Of a DNA stretch of 64,000 nucleotides, positions 34,098-41,633 are shown piece by piece. The notes beneath the pieces are model-generated. The model was not told where the DNA came from, did no database searches, and was given only the letters and a program-made list of their open reading frames with translations. Every line of letters starts with the position of its first letter. Within the stretch, counting starts at the first letter, position 1. The DNA is from Bacteroidia bacterium (GTDB taxonomy: Bacteria; Bacteroidota; Bacteroidia; JADZBD01). The DNA is taken from NCBI GenBank assembly GCA_020852255.1, contig JADZBD010000023.1:1-64000 (forward strand). The letters run 5' to 3'. Made by a program: the position numbers and the translations under genes.

Positions 34098-34122
34098 TGA
34101 ATTTGGGTTAATTTGGTTTGGG

Positions 34123-34150
34123 AAAGCCCCGGCGGAAGCCGGGGTTTTTT
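34123..34150 (+). terminator. Intrinsic terminator of rpoD
   Basis: CCCCGG (34127-34132) and CCGGGG (34139-34144) with loop CGGAAG, followed by six T. It ends 19 bases before the rpe ATG. Confidence 0.88.
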
Positions 34151-34168
34151 GTTAATTTTACAATCAAT

Positions 34169-34822
34169 ATGAAAGCTCCCATTATTTCCCCTTCATTGCT
34201 TTCAGCGGACTTCGGAAACCTGCAACGGGATATCGACATGGTGAACGGAAGCAGTGCAGATTGGTTCCATGTAGACATTATGGACGGGGTGTTTGTGCCG
34301 AATATCTCCTTTGGTTTTCCTGTATTAAATGCCATCCGAAAGCATGCTACGAAGCCGCTGGATGTGCATCTGATGATCGCGGATGCGGATAAGTACCTCC
34401 AGGCATTCCGTGATGCCGGCGCCGCGAATCTCTCTGTTCATATTGAAGCATGTTCTCATCTTCACCGTACAATTCAGGAGATACGCTCTCTCGGAATGAA
34501 AGCCGGTGTGGCTATTAATCCCCACACGCCTGTGAGTAGCCTTGAATCGATCCTCAGCGAGCTGGATCTGGTGATTGTAATGAGTGTAAATCCGGGCTTC
34601 GGCGGACAAAAATTTATTGATTCAACGTTTAAGAAAGTCAGCGTACTGCGCGAAATGATCAAAGTCTCCGGATCAAAGGCACTCATAGAAGTAGATGGTG
34701 GAGTGAGCCTGGAAAATGCACCGCTGCTCCTGAAAGCGGGGGCCGATGCGCTGGTAGCCGGTAATACCGTTTTTGCCTCGGCCGACCCTGTGAAGACGAT
34801 CGGGGCTCTAAAGTCGTCCTGA
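34169..34822 (+). CDS. rpe: Ribulose-phosphate 3-epimerase
   Basis: 217-aa TIM-barrel enzyme that interconverts ribulose-5-phosphate and xylulose-5-phosphate in the pentose phosphate pathway. The start at 34169 (MKAPIISPSLLSADFGNL) is the canonical one. Active-site segments are complete: FHVDIMDGVFVPN, DVHLMI, VNPGFGGQKFI, EVDGGV and VAGNTVF. This complete set is a useful reference for the divergent epimerase-like fusion at 38548. The next gene begins 4 bases after its stop, suggesting an operon with the two hypothetical genes. Confidence 0.96.
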   Translation: MKAPIISPSLLSADFGNLQRDIDMVNGSSADWFHVDIMDGVFVPNISFGFPVLNAIRKHATKPLDVHLMIADADKYLQAFRDAGAANLSVHIEACSHLHRTIQEIRSLGMKAGVAINPHTPVSSLESILSELDLVIVMSVNPGFGGQKFIDSTFKKVSVLREMIKVSGSKALIEVDGGVSLENAPLLLKAGADALVAGNTVFASADPVKTIGALKSS

Positions 34823-36598: not shown

Positions 36599-38464
36599 TC
36601 ACTTTTCCAGGTATTCTTCCCACAGGATCTGCAGGTAGCTCTTTCCCTCCTTTAGTAAAGTCATGCGCCGCCCGGCACTCGCACTACGGTCTCTCCAAAG
36701 ATCCTTCATTGCAGGTGACCATACCACATGCTCTCCGGGACGGATCCATCCGAAGCCGTCAGTGTTCTCAAAGAAGGCAAACTCCGGTGTATAGGGATTA
36801 AAGAGATTCTTGCTCCAGTGAAATTCAGAATAATCAATACCATATTGTGCAAGTAAGGTGGCCGCCAGATCTGTCTGAGAGGATATGCGATGCAGAGTTC
36901 TGCCCCTCAGGCTATCGTTCAGAACTTCTCCCCAAAGCAGAAAAGGTATGCGCCGGTATTCTGCCATATATCTTTCCGTACCCTTTGGTGTGCGGTGACT
37001 GTGGTCGGAGATAAACACAAAAAGTGTATTGTTGAACCAGGGTTCTTTCCTGGCGCTCTCTATAAACTTCTTCAGTTCCTGATCGAAATAGTGTACAGAA
37101 TGTACATAGCGGGATTCTTCATGTTCTCCCGTGTAGGGAGCGGCAACAGGCGGATGATCATATGGTGAGTGTGTGCTGCCTGTAAACAGGGTGTTGAACC
37201 AGGGTGATGGAGAGGATTGACATACCTTCAGCAATTCGCGGAACATCTCTCCGTCGTGAATGCCTAACTTTCCCCTTGGAAGTCCGGGAAAATCACGCGA
37301 TTCAAGAACCCTGTCAAATTCGTTCCACATCATGTACGCGCGGATATTACCATAGGTAAGTTCACCTCCGAAAAGAAAGGTGCTGTGGAATCCTACTGCT
37401 TTCATTTTTTTATTCAACGAAGGCAGCATGCCGAATTTGTCAGGTTGTGAAGTAATCGAAACATGAGGTTGTGCGGGAAATCCGCTGAAAATGCTGCTCA
37501 TGCCCTGATCGCTGAGATTACCGGAAGCATAGAGACTGTCGAAGAGAAGCCCCTCCCGGCATAATTGGTCAAAGTAAGGTGTAATCCCGTCAATGCCACC
37601 CAGGGCTCCCACAACTTCCGAGGATATTCCTTCCATGATGATCAGTACTATATTCGGGTGCTCTTTATTCAGGATAAATTGTGTGCTGTCCCTTTCGGTC
37701 TGATGTATTTTCTGTACCGTTTGTTCCGCATCCGGATAAAAGTGAAAGGAGTTGGACATCATGACTTTTCTGTTTTCCATGATGCCGGACATGAGCTGCC
37801 AGGTGGTGTTGGTGGCTGCAACATTCAGGAACTGGTTCTTAGAGAAATAAACATCACTGACCTGCACCGGAATGGGAGCCCAGCCGCCCCGTATACCGAG
37901 AAAGAGCAGGGGGGGTGTAAGAAAAATAAAGAGCGCCGGCAGTAAGTAAGACCGGGGGGCGGTTCCTGCCTCGTGGTCTTGACGGTAACGGTGAATTTTG
38001 TTTATGATCAGGTGAGTAGCCAGGCCTACAACAGACAGAACAAGAACGGAGGCCAGGAGAAAGGAGGTACGTACGGTTTCCAGCGCCTCTGCAGGATGTT
38101 CCAGAAACAGTATAGCCCTTACATTCACCTTTACTCCCCACTCCGCATAGAGTTCTAAATCAGCGAGGCTTAGAGCTGACGTGATTAGAGCTGCCAGAAT
38201 GAAATAAACGCGGAGAATTGAGAGGAGAAAATCCTTGCAGATAAACAAATAAAATGAAAGTAAAATAAAGGGAAGGCACAGCAAATATCCGGTCATGGAA
38301 ATATCATGCACCAGACCATAAAAAAACGCCCCGGCAATTTCAGTCCCGCGGGAATCCGATGCCATACCAAAATGACACAGAACGAAGAGCAGGCGCTGGA
38401 TGGAAAAAACACCCATCCAGAAGAGGAGATAAACAAATAAAATACGAATGACCCGCCTTAACAT
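36599..38464 (-). CDS. LTA-synthase-like membrane phosphatase/phosphotransferase (sulfatase fold)
   Basis: 621-aa protein with about five N-terminal membrane segments and a periplasmic alkaline-phosphatase-superfamily domain from about residue 265. Metal and active-site motifs: NIVLIIMEGISSE (Glu278), YASGNLSDQGMSSIFSGFPAQP, LGIHDGEMF and FVFISDHSHRTP. In LtaS/OpgB/EptA relatives the nucleophile in the second motif is usually Thr; here the aligned residue seems to be Ser (about 318). ATG at 38464 is preferred over a TTG two codons upstream. It would transfer a phospho-polar headgroup in the envelope; substrate unknown. TAACTTTG ends 3 bases before the ATG, so the message may be leaderless. 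Confidence 0.85.
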   Translation of the reverse strand: MLRRVIRILFVYLLFWMGVFSIQRLLFVLCHFGMASDSRGTEIAGAFFYGLVHDISMTGYLLCLPFILLSFYLFICKDFLLSILRVYFILAALITSALSLADLELYAEWGVKVNVRAILFLEHPAEALETVRTSFLLASVLVLSVVGLATHLIINKIHRYRQDHEAGTAPRSYLLPALFIFLTPPLLFLGIRGGWAPIPVQVSDVYFSKNQFLNVAATNTTWQLMSGIMENRKVMMSNSFHFYPDAEQTVQKIHQTERDSTQFILNKEHPNIVLIIMEGISSEVVGALGGIDGITPYFDQLCREGLLFDSLYASGNLSDQGMSSIFSGFPAQPHVSITSQPDKFGMLPSLNKKMKAVGFHSTFLFGGELTYGNIRAYMMWNEFDRVLESRDFPGLPRGKLGIHDGEMFRELLKVCQSSPSPWFNTLFTGSTHSPYDHPPVAAPYTGEHEESRYVHSVHYFDQELKKFIESARKEPWFNNTLFVFISDHSHRTPKGTERYMAEYRRIPFLLWGEVLNDSLRGRTLHRISSQTDLAATLLAQYGIDYSEFHWSKNLFNPYTPEFAFFENTDGFGWIRPGEHVVWSPAMKDLWRDRSASAGRRMTLLKEGKSYLQILWEEYLEK

Positions 38465-38467
38465 ACC

Positions 38468-38475
38468 CAAAGTTA
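38468..38475 (-). promoter_or_regulatory. -7 element abutting the LTA-synthase-like start
   Basis: TAACTTTG on the minus strand, 3 bases from the ATG. With the transcription start normally a few bases beyond the -7 element, the message would have essentially no leader. Confidence 0.45.
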
Positions 38476-38547: not shown

Positions 38548-39552
38548 ATGAAGGTTTCAGCCTCGGTTTATTCGAACAAAAAGAAGTCGCTGCGGGATCT
38601 AGTGCGGGAACTGGATGAATTCATTGTGGACTTCCTTCACATGGACTGTAACGATGAGCCCGCCGTATTCGATGATATACGAGAAATCCGGGAATTCAGC
38701 AAAACGCCGATTGACCTCCACATCATCACCTCTGATCCTGAAAAGTATTTTGATGGTATTCGCGAAACCCGACCGGAGCTCGTCACCTTCCAGTATGAAA
38801 ATTTGAAAAAGGGGTGGAATATTCCTTCTGACCTTGGTTGCCGCCTTGGTCTGGCTATCGTCAGCGATACACCGGTCTCCGTTTTTGAACCGGTGGCAGC
38901 TCGTTTTGATTTCATCCTGTTCATGACCACCACACCAGGAAAAAGCGGTGGAACCTTTAATAAGGAGAATTTCGCCAAGATCCGGGAGTTCAGGAAAAGA
39001 TTCCCGGACAAAAAAGTACATGTGGATGGTGGAGTAACCGCTGATATTTCTTTCGTGCTTCGCAATATGGGCGTGTATGCAGCGGTTTCGGGATCCTACC
39101 TTGTTAATTCGGAAGGCATGGGAAACGCGATGCATAACCTTCGCAGCAATTATTATGTTCCGTCAGGAACGCATGTGAAAGATTTTATGTTGGGAAATGG
39201 AGAAGTTCCGAGAATTACCGAATCAGCAGGATTGATGGAGATACTTAAAAGCATTGAAGAGTTCAATTTGGGATTTACCAATGTGGTGAATGCCGGCGGA
39301 GAACTGCTCGGGCTCATCAGCAACGCAGATGTCCGGAGAGGGATTTTAAAGAATCCGGGAAAGGTAGAGAGCCTGAAAGCGTCGGATATGATCAATCGAA
39401 ATCCTGTGTGCGCACATTCCGAAATGCTGATAGGAGAAATGCTGGAAATGATCCGCAATACCGGCGCCAGTATCCTCTACCTGCCGGTGGTAGGGCGAGG
39501 CAAAAAGCTGGAGGGAGTTGTTTCATTCACCAATCTTATTAAAGGAGAATAA
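38548..39552 (+). CDS. Ribulose-phosphate-epimerase-like barrel fused to a CBS-domain pair
   Basis: 334-aa fusion. Residues 1-200 resemble ribulose-phosphate epimerase. Equivalents of all four metal ligands are kept: His31 and Asp33 (FLHMDCND), His58 (DLHII), Asp160 (HVDGGV). The Met of HxDIMDG is replaced (Asn35), and VNPGFGGQ is replaced by TTPGKSGG (129-135). Residues about 208-332 are two CBS domains (DFMLGNGEVPRI, LISNADVRRGIL, NRNPVCAHS, VVSFTNLI), arranged like those of arabinose-5-phosphate isomerase KdsD, whose catalytic domain is instead a SIS fold. First gene of a packed operon with DAHP-synthase-like and KdsC-like genes. I infer a sugar-phosphate epimerase or isomerase regulated by a nucleotide-sugar ligand; the substrate is unknown. 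Confidence 0.82.
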   Translation: MKVSASVYSNKKKSLRDLVRELDEFIVDFLHMDCNDEPAVFDDIREIREFSKTPIDLHIITSDPEKYFDGIRETRPELVTFQYENLKKGWNIPSDLGCRLGLAIVSDTPVSVFEPVAARFDFILFMTTTPGKSGGTFNKENFAKIREFRKRFPDKKVHVDGGVTADISFVLRNMGVYAAVSGSYLVNSEGMGNAMHNLRSNYYVPSGTHVKDFMLGNGEVPRITESAGLMEILKSIEEFNLGFTNVVNAGGELLGLISNADVRRGILKNPGKVESLKASDMINRNPVCAHSEMLIGEMLEMIRNTGASILYLPVVGRGKKLEGVVSFTNLIKGE

Positions 39553-39553
39553 T

Positions 39554-40555
39554 ATGATCATTCGTCTTCAATCGAACATGAGCGATGCCCGTGTGGAGGA
39601 ACTGGGAAAAGAGTACCGTGTGATCGCGGTAAAAGATACGGATGGCTGGTTGCTGGTGTCTCCCACGAAAATGAAGGAAGTGCCGGAAGGACTAAAAAAG
39701 CACACAAAGGAGTTTTTTGTATTCCAGGATGATATTCAGCTGGCCAGCAAGAAATTTATTAATGGAACACGGGAAGTCAGGATTGGCAAGGAACTCAAGA
39801 TCGGCGGCACAACAAGGAATACATTAATGATCACAGGCCCTTGTTCGGTAGAATCGGAAGAACAACTGGATGCTTCAGCGCAGCTGTGTGTTAAATTGGG
39901 AGTAAAGGTGCTCCGGGCCGGAGCGTTCAAGCCCAGAACTTCTCCTTATACATTTCAGGGAATGGGAGTGGAAGGACTGAAGCTGCTGGATAAAATGAGA
40001 AAAAAATACGGGCTGTATATTATATCGGAGGTACGTGACAGTACACATGTTCAGGATATTATTGAGTTCGCAGATATTATTCAGATCGGGGCGAAATCCA
40101 TGTATGATCATGGTATTCTCAAAGCGAGCGCAAGGGCAGGAAAACCGGTACTGCTCAAGCGGGGTTTTGGAACTACACTGCAGGAGTTTGTTCAGGCAGC
40201 GGAGTTCATTCTTTCGGGTGGAAATCCGGACGTGATTTTATGTGAGCGTGGCCTCCGGACATTTGAGACCAAAACCCGTTTCACACTGGATCTTTGTGGT
40301 GTGGCGTGGCTCAAGGAGCACGTCAATCTTCCTATCATTCTCGATCCGTCGCATGCAATCGGTTATGCGTATGGTGTACCCGATCTTACCCGTGCCTGCC
40401 TCGCCATGGGCGTTGATGGCCTTCTGATCGAAACGCATCCCACACCGGAAAAGGCACTCTCGGATGCTTCGCAACAGCTGAATTTTGATCAATTCACACA
40501 ATTATACCGCTCCCTGCCTCCGCTGGCAGCTGCGATCGGAAGACAAATCATCTGA
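39554..40555 (+). CDS. Divergent DAHP-synthase-like enzyme (type I-beta)
   Basis: 333-aa enzyme with an N-terminal ferredoxin-like regulatory domain (1-65) and a DAHP/KDO8P-synthase barrel that condenses PEP with an aldose phosphate. Metal ligands are present: Cys97 (ITGPCSVESEEQ), His267, Glu293 (ETHP), Asp304. FKPRTSPYTFQG (125-136) is as in DAHP synthases. Two conserved stretches differ: the usual GARN is GAKS (179-182), and the usual SHSxGRRDL is SHAIGYAYGVPDL (266-278), losing the paired arginines. ATG at 39554 follows AAAGGAG, a good ribosome site, one base after the upstream stop. It could be the shikimate-pathway enzyme, but the neighbours and pocket changes favour another acceptor sugar. 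Confidence 0.85.
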   Translation: MIIRLQSNMSDARVEELGKEYRVIAVKDTDGWLLVSPTKMKEVPEGLKKHTKEFFVFQDDIQLASKKFINGTREVRIGKELKIGGTTRNTLMITGPCSVESEEQLDASAQLCVKLGVKVLRAGAFKPRTSPYTFQGMGVEGLKLLDKMRKKYGLYIISEVRDSTHVQDIIEFADIIQIGAKSMYDHGILKASARAGKPVLLKRGFGTTLQEFVQAAEFILSGGNPDVILCERGLRTFETKTRFTLDLCGVAWLKEHVNLPIILDPSHAIGYAYGVPDLTRACLAMGVDGLLIETHPTPEKALSDASQQLNFDQFTQLYRSLPPLAAAIGRQII

Positions 40556-41229
40556 TGGACTATTTGAAGAAAAATCTGCAATGGCTGATTGAAAAAGGAA
40601 GGCTCGACAGCGGGAAGCTGGCCGCAGACCTTTCTCTCCCAACTTCCTCGATCGTAAAAGCAGACGTCAGATATATTGAAAACTGGCTTCGCATTGCGGA
40701 ACTGAGCGGATTTTCCCTCGATATTCTGGCACATATTGATCTCTCCGCACGCGACATGGCTTCAGGGAAGGGAATAAAATTGCTCACCCTGGATGTGGAT
40801 GGTGTAATGACAGAGGGCGGGATGTTTTACAGTGAAGACGGGAATGAATATAAGCGGTTTAATACCCGCGACGGAATCGGAATCCGCCTGGCCCTGGCAG
40901 CTGGCGTTAAGGTCGGATTTATATCGCACGGAAAAAATAACGGATTGATTAGTTCCCGTGCAAAACACCTTGGAGTTGATCTTGTTTATACAGGCAAGGA
41001 TAGCAAACTCGGTATAATCGGGGAATGGGCGAAACAAGCCGGACTGGGATTAGAGGCTTGTGCACATGTTGGAGATGATATCAACGACCTGGAGGTGATG
41101 GATAAGGTTGGCTTGAGTGCATGCCCCGCGGATGCCGTAGACATCATGAAGAAGCATGCGCGTGTTGTTTTGAGGAAAAAGGGCGGCGAAGGCTGTGTGA
41201 GAGAATTTATTGAATCGTATCTCGTATGA
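40555..41229 (+). CDS. KdsC-like HAD phosphatase with HTH-like N-terminal extension
   Basis: 224-aa protein. Residues 75-224 form a KdsC-type HAD phosphatase: LTLDVDGVMTEGGMFY (nucleophile Asp80, acid Asp82), KRFNTRDGIGI, FISHGKNNGLISSRAKHLGV (motif II, with Ser124 where TGRES is usual) and HVGDDINDLEVM (motif IV, 171-182). KdsC removes phosphate from KDO-8-phosphate. Residues 1-66 are an extra domain with XRE-like features: NLQWLIEKGRLDSGKLAADL, then IENWLRIAELSGFSLDIL, the spacing of a Cro/C1 helix-turn-helix followed by its dimer helix. Typical KdsC has no such extension. TGATG start/stop overlap with the upstream synthase gene. Confidence 0.85.
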   Translation: MDYLKKNLQWLIEKGRLDSGKLAADLSLPTSSIVKADVRYIENWLRIAELSGFSLDILAHIDLSARDMASGKGIKLLTLDVDGVMTEGGMFYSEDGNEYKRFNTRDGIGIRLALAAGVKVGFISHGKNNGLISSRAKHLGVDLVYTGKDSKLGIIGEWAKQAGLGLEACAHVGDDINDLEVMDKVGLSACPADAVDIMKKHARVVLRKKGGEGCVREFIESYLV

Positions 41230-41633
41230 ACGGAATCTCACGGAAGTGGTTCATCATGGCTTCTTTATCCGGTGCAGCGGCGGTCGGATTAGGTGCTTTC
41301 GGGGCACACGGACTCAAAGGGGTATTGACAGATTACGGTCTGGCGATCTGGGAGAAAGCCGTATTGTACCAGTTTGTTCACACCATCGGAATTGCAATCG
41401 TTGGGGTTGTTCTAACCATTGAAGGGTGGGAGAAAATAAGATGGGCCGGCTGGTTCTGGATGGTGGGTATAGTCCTTTTTTCCGGGTCACTGTATCTGCT
41501 CGCACTGAAGGATCATTTCCAGTGGATAAAGACAGGAGTGCTCGGACCGATTACGCCCTTAGGAGGACTTTGTTTCATTGCCGGATGGCTAATGTTTTTT
41601 GTAGCGGCAGTATCCGGGAAAAAATCAAAATGA
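41226..41633 (+). CDS. DUF423 membrane protein
   Basis: 135-aa protein with four hydrophobic segments. DUF423 features: an N-terminal segment with GAAAVGLGAFGAHGLK, then WEKAVLYQFVHTIGIAIVG, a pattern with conserved His in and after the first helices, and ending in a GWLMFFVAAVS helix. Function of DUF423 is unknown. It overlaps the KdsC-like gene by four bases (ATGA) and precedes the M32 peptidase gene by one base, so it belongs to the same transcript. Confidence 0.88.
   Translation: MNGISRKWFIMASLSGAAAVGLGAFGAHGLKGVLTDYGLAIWEKAVLYQFVHTIGIAIVGVVLTIEGWEKIRWAGWFWMVGIVLFSGSLYLLALKDHFQWIKTGVLGPITPLGGLCFIAGWLMFFVAAVSGKKSK

Follow-up and report, generated by a model that had tools for sequence, protein, structure and literature searches.

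A CBS-tailed RPE-type barrel, a DAHP synthase relative and a KdsC-type phosphatase as a candidate second version of the early Kdo pathway

Introduction

Kdo is the sugar that links lipid A to the remainder of the outer-membrane lipopolysaccharide. To our knowledge, its synthesis is usually regarded as a single universal Gram-negative route, and two of its enzymes, KdsA and KdsD, are antibacterial targets. A 64,000-nucleotide stretch of DNA from a Bacteroidia bacterium (the window; contig JADZBD010000023.1) raises the question of whether this route has a second form. Three abutting genes in the window follow the series KdsD–KdsA–KdsC, with an RPE-type barrel and a DAHP synthase relative in the first two positions (Table 1). 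The initial annotation had already recognized the abutting genes and the parallel, and both are borne out by the open reading frame coordinates and the family assignments. It had read the operon as a source of an additional 3-deoxy sugar acid, and we here ask whether the cassette adds to Kdo synthesis or takes the place of its early steps. A prior description of such a cassette was not found in the open-licence literature.

Results

The cassette and its surroundings

The start of CDS2 was taken as the ATG at 39554, and the mechanical open reading frame start at 39518 is probably wrong; CDS2 and CDS3 overlap by one base. Downstream, a DUF423 membrane protein gene overlaps CDS3 by four bases, and a DUF423-like protein is also encoded downstream of the cassette in the relatives G016 and G001. 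Upstream lies a divergently transcribed sulfatase/LTA-synthase-like gene, and G016, G001 and G030 have a gene of similar size and place by the cassette, whereas distant relatives do not. The divergent gene that the initial annotation had cited for an envelope role is real, but it adjoins the cassette only in close relatives and is outside the conserved unit.

Table 1. Positions of the cassette, of its neighbours and of related features. Positions refer to the window unless a locus is named.
Feature	Position	Strand	Basis or remark
CDS1, RPE-like barrel and KdsD-type CBS pair, 334 aa	38548..39552	+	Pfam PF00834, PF00571; AlphaFold; Foldseek
CDS1 catalytic-residue codons (metal ligands/acid-base)	38638..39027	+	Invariance across family alignment
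His31 codon	38638-38640	+	In CDS1
Asp33 codon	38644-38646	+	In CDS1
His58 codon	38719-38721	+	In CDS1
Asp160 codon	39025-39027	+	In CDS1
CDS1 CBS pair, residues 201-334, putative CMP-Kdo/CMP-analogue sensor	39148..39549	+	4o9k is top match
CDS2, DAHP-synthase-family (type I-beta), 333 aa, putative PEP-condensing Kdo-8-phosphate synthase	39554..40555	+	TIGR01361, clade, motifs
CDS3, KdsC/YrbI-family phosphatase with ~65-residue N-terminal helical domain	40555..41229	+	TIGR01670; Foldseek
N-terminal extension of the phosphatase	40555-40752		
Ordinary RPE	34118-34822		
Sulfatase/LTA-synthase-like gene	36599-38470	-	
DUF423 membrane protein gene	41226-41633		
Transaldolase-CBS examples	L062:5451-6458; L061:5209-6228; L069:11782-12840	-	Plus about 47 further genomes

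CDS1 joins an RPE-type barrel to a KdsD-type CBS pair

Residues 2-185 of CDS1 match the RPE family in Pfam (PF00834, 95.9 bits, cut-off 21.1), and this score together with all four metal ligands places the protein in the RPE superfamily. His31, Asp33, His58 and Asp160 are invariant in CDS1 and 17 relatives (18 family members) and are also found in the ordinary RPE encoded elsewhere in the window. The loop behind Asp33 is six residues shorter in CDS1 than in RPE, and the RPE equivalog model TIGR01163 reached only 82 bits with a cut-off of 212.6; judged by its sequence, CDS1 is not an ordinary RPE. The C-terminal part gave a CBS match of 45.7 bits (PF00571) and aligns to the C-terminal, CBS positions of the KpsF/KdsD models, and the KdsD/KpsF model TIGR00393 scored 39.2 bits on this part only (cut-off 203.7), as a SIS domain is missing.

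The AlphaFold model of CDS1 (mean pLDDT 89.5) agrees with this bipartite architecture. Foldseek matched human RPE (3ovp, E 2.8e-14), with residues 1-204 reaching a Z of about 27 against RPE, and 4o9k, a structure of the KdsD CBS pair containing CMP-Kdo (E 3.8e-10), which is the first CBS match among solved structures by sequence and also the first by fold. The retained metal ligands, the differing loops and the KdsD-like CBS pair on a swapped catalytic fold, all of which had been claimed at the outset, were therefore confirmed, the last of them also by the comparison of a predicted structure with RPE and the KdsD CBS pair that had been suggested. By analogy with 4o9k, we propose the CBS pair as a candidate sensor of CMP-Kdo or of a CMP-analogue end product.

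CDS2 belongs to a distinct clade of DAHP synthases, and CDS3 is a KdsC-type phosphatase

CDS2 scored 307.7 bits with the DAHP synthase model TIGR01361 (cut-off 267.75), 116.2 bits with the KdsA model TIGR01362 (cut-off 314), and only 27.9 bits with the NeuB Pfam family. In a tree without KdsA, the cassette enzymes form one clade with 100% SH-aLRT support, separate from 20 ordinary I-beta enzymes of the same class. When KdsA was added, it fell within this clade on a long branch of 8.3 changes per column; given the single clade recovered without it, this nesting was rejected as a long-branch artefact. The clade replaces GARNxQNFxLL by GAKSMYDHGIL and DPSHG(I/T)G by DPSHA(I/M)GYxYG. From knowledge of the family, we take these segments to sit at the active site, so that they fit a changed acceptor, and the segments with the catalytic Cys, His, Glu and Asp are retained. 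The motif KPRTS is present in CDS2 and all cassette relatives, and the KANRSS-type motif of KdsA is absent. KPRTS accompanies acceptors of 2R configuration, erythrose-4-phosphate among them, but arabinose-5-phosphate is 2S; the unchanged motif therefore demands caution with arabinose-5-phosphate as acceptor of CDS2. The genomic context argues for an acceptor other than erythrose-4-phosphate.

CDS3 exceeds the cut-off of the KdsC family (TIGR01670, 143.2 bits, cut-off 106.95), and its top Foldseek match, at 40% identity, is 3i6b, an E. coli KdsC structure that contains Kdo and phosphate. AlphaFold predicts short helices for residues 2-60. A helix-turn-helix assignment of this N-terminal domain found no Pfam match, and the Foldseek matches listed were phosphatases only; the extension is missing in the relatives G016, G059, G010, G054 and G037.

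The genome lacks KdsA and KdsD matches and retains KdsB and WaaA

In the genome of the window, no protein exceeded the KdsA cut-off (TIGR01362), and matches to the KdsD model TIGR00393 were confined to the CBS regions of other proteins. A hidden divergent KdsA or KdsD was also considered and rejected, as searches with PF00793, TIGR01362 and kpsF returned DAHP synthase-type, one weak NeuB-type and CBS-only matches. The CMP-Kdo synthetase KdsB (223.4 bits, cut-off 155.2) and the Kdo transferase WaaA are both present. Besides the ordinary RPE, there are two further DAHP synthases (G000:C18:127267 and G000:C9:155786). CDS2 is therefore not the sole DAHP synthase of the organism, so that the circumstance which the initial annotation had named beforehand as speaking against its reading does not apply, and CDS1 as a plain extra RPE was ruled out on score and context. 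The suggested check of the genome for normal kdsD, kdsA and a separate shikimate DAHP synthase has thus been carried out. At another locus (L088, G000:C18:29687-30719), a weak NeuB-type synthase match lies beside a weak cytidylyltransferase match, possibly sialic or pseudaminic-type sugar acid genes, as far as can be told from these matches.

The fusion and KdsA exclude each other

The RPE-like gene was found in 16 of 60 relatives, the sample in which KdsB and WaaA were searched, and all 16 lack KdsA and SIS-KdsD. KdsB is present in 15 of them and WaaA in 14; the two without WaaA are G037, which is 69% complete and also lacks KdsB, and G020, which has kept KdsB. A larger sample comprised 295 genomes of the class, many of them fragmented assemblies. 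The fusion occurs in 65 of these, a count that takes in family f3 genomes whose RPE-like gene aligned over the barrel only, and KdsA in 209; none has both, and 21 have neither (Fisher p 2.8e-47, a value overstated by genome kinship). As both states are found inside 11 families and four genera (g17, g22, g25 and g46), repeated exchange is indicated and the kinship problem is lessened. The absence of a gene in a single genome is weak evidence, but the pattern of matches across 65 genomes is not.

The co-occurrence search proposed with the initial annotation gave a clear answer: a cassette-type DAHP synthase is present in 64 of the 65 fusion genomes and adjoins the fusion in 63, with the fusion at a contig end in the exceptions (G167 and G238). 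The linkage is far beyond chance. Elsewhere, G235 and G024 were the only genomes with this type of DAHP synthase. In 206 of 209 genomes, KdsA is accompanied by a first enzyme of KdsD type, either SIS or transaldolase-CBS, and an intact one was found in none of the 65 fusion genomes, G149 giving one SIS match under the cut-off. In G025, kdsB is two genes away from the cassette. G024 has a cassette DAHP synthase and phosphatase (L194:3729-5445, minus strand; L195:753-2140, plus strand), with the fusion gene missing at the syntenic place, and encodes KdsA and a SIS protein of 196 aa on a different contig. This genome counts against the replacement reading, but it may represent a transitional state, or else result from a binning error or contamination.

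A transaldolase-type domain carries the same kind of CBS pair

Where KdsA is present but SIS-KdsD is not, a CBS pair of this kind is joined to a transaldolase/FSA-type domain (PF00923). Among the 209 KdsA genomes, SIS-KdsD occurs in 160 and the transaldolase-CBS protein in 48, with both in 2 and neither in 3, and the transaldolase-CBS gene adjoins kdsA, a phosphatase gene or kdsB in most sampled cases. E. coli FSA enzymes form arabinose-5-phosphate from glycolaldehyde and glyceraldehyde-3-phosphate (PMC6298115). With this chemistry, the transaldolase-CBS protein could feed arabinose-5-phosphate to an ordinary KdsA, and by analogy it is a candidate arabinose-5-phosphate aldolase that could stand in for KdsD. 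The variant strengthens the case for the CBS pair as the constant, pathway-marking part, combined with interchangeable catalytic domains. In family f3, the CBS part of the RPE-like gene is reduced or lost (L071:3889-4890, minus strand, in G049; similar in G085, G118, G149 and G207). Several f3 genomes have kept a divergent transaldolase-CBS protein (37-42% identity) despite KdsA loss, and perhaps the sensor survives there as a separate protein.

Discussion

As KdsA and KdsD are absent, KdsB and WaaA are kept, and the fusion and KdsA are mutually exclusive, the cassette most likely fills the Kdo position. We are highly confident that it is a non-orthologous replacement of KdsD–KdsA. That its product is Kdo itself is probable, if clearly less certain, and for arabinose-5-phosphate as the shared intermediate we see about even chances. 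On balance we favor the complete reading, in which the cassette works in place of the early Kdo pathway via arabinose-5-phosphate and Kdo-8-phosphate. A wider proposal, to which we give an evenly divided judgement, is that of a second, independently assembled Kdo route, in which a DAHP synthase-derived Kdo-8-phosphate synthase and an RPE-family barrel that forms an aldose phosphate by a new activity have been exchanged as a cassette with kdsD–kdsA among genomes of Bacteroidia type. The CBS sensor of KdsD type would have been kept throughout, on SIS, transaldolase/FSA-like and RPE-like domains.

RPE moves a proton at the carbon beside the C2 ketone via a metal-stabilized enediolate and two aspartates, and in the wider barrel superfamily HisA and TrpF carry out 1,2 shifts. 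If C1–C2 of a pentose phosphate were placed at the usual C2–C3 position, the metal site and the acid-base pair Asp33/Asp160 could act one carbon over, through a 1,2-enediolate, and arabinose-5-phosphate would result either from 2-epimerization of ribose-5-phosphate or from isomerization of ribulose-5-phosphate. We know of no RPE-family enzyme that forms arabinose-5-phosphate, and this counts against our explanation. CDS2 would then join the aldose phosphate and PEP to Kdo-8-phosphate, and CDS3 would, as expected for its family, strip the phosphate. Activation of the free sugar and its transfer to lipid A would fall to the ordinary KdsB and WaaA, with feedback from the CMP-sugar end product exerted through the CBS pair.

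The most serious alternative, which we nevertheless consider rather unlikely, is that the cassette yields a Kdo substitute tolerated by KdsB and WaaA. Erythrose-4-phosphate could give a C7 3-deoxy-heptulosonic acid, for example, and a different pentose phosphate an 8-carbon isomer such as the C5-epimer. The retained KPRTS motif and a synthase clade unlike KdsA throughout agree with such a substitute, and the strict separation of fusion and KdsA would be natural if KdsA could not use the intermediate. However, swaps inside genera speak against a different product, and the erythrose-4-phosphate variant leaves no role for the conserved epimerase-CBS gene. Moreover, a product far removed from Kdo should have left cassette-specific residues in KdsB or WaaA, and none was found, as the best separating columns were matched or exceeded in 54 of 200 and 144 of 200 random splits, respectively. 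This points to Kdo or a close analogue, although it is a weak test for differences of one carbon or one epimer.

Much less probable are two explanations that leave Kdo synthesis aside. The genes could serve ordinary metabolism, with the fusion as a regulated ribulose-5-phosphate epimerase, CDS2 as an extra shikimate DAHP synthase and the phosphatase co-located by chance, and indeed CDS2 exceeds the curated DAHP synthase cut-off and CDS1 retains the RPE metal ligands. We regard this as very improbable: a normal RPE and two further DAHP synthases are already encoded in the genome, CDS1 is far under the RPE equivalog cut-off, and the strict KdsA exclusion over 295 genomes is left unexplained, as is the KdsC-type phosphatase, since the phosphate of DAHP must stay for the next shikimate enzyme. 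Equally doubtful is the initially annotated reading, in which normal Kdo is made and a further 3-deoxy sugar acid serves a different envelope polymer. The operon anatomy would suit it, and the parallel to KdsD–KdsA–KdsC with a swapped first fold stands, but the missing KdsA and KdsD, the retained KdsB and WaaA, and the exclusion over 295 genomes speak against an addition to normal Kdo.

A replacement of KdsD–KdsA would thus seem to be an undescribed second version of the essential Kdo pathway, with novelty judged within the open-licence literature. About one fifth of the sampled genomes in one class are without KdsA and intact KdsD, and almost all of those checked retain Kdo-using enzymes. If our reading is true, annotation pipelines overlook the Kdo pathway in cassette bacteria, KdsA and KdsD inhibitors would be without action on them, and CDS1 and CDS2 would represent two new enzyme activities. 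The cassette would also offer a clear natural example of the wholesale exchange of a core pathway with retention of its presumed feedback domain.

The cassette can be compared with several known systems. With ribulose-phosphate 3-epimerase, CDS1 shares the fold, the four metal ligands and the phosphate-loop segments PGxSGG and DGGV, but it is only ~25% identical, has the six-residue deletion after Asp33 and the added CBS pair, and remains under the Rpe equivalog cut-off. CDS2 resembles type I-beta DAHP synthases (TIGR01361) in score, KPRTS motif and catalytic segments, whereas the cassette enzymes form their own clade with two substituted segments. Routes of the KDN-9-phosphate and sialic acid type likewise proceed from a sugar phosphate through PEP condensation to a YrbI/KdsC-family phosphatase, but their synthase is of the NeuB family and that of the cassette is of the DAHP synthase family. 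With the canonical KdsD–KdsA–KdsC–KdsB–WaaA pathway, the cassette shares a CBS-tailed sugar-phosphate enzyme, a PEP-condensing barrel and a KdsC-family phosphatase in the same order and with the same KdsB and WaaA downstream; it differs in that the first enzyme has an RPE-type barrel for the SIS domain, and the second is a type I-beta DAHP synthase relative in place of KdsA.
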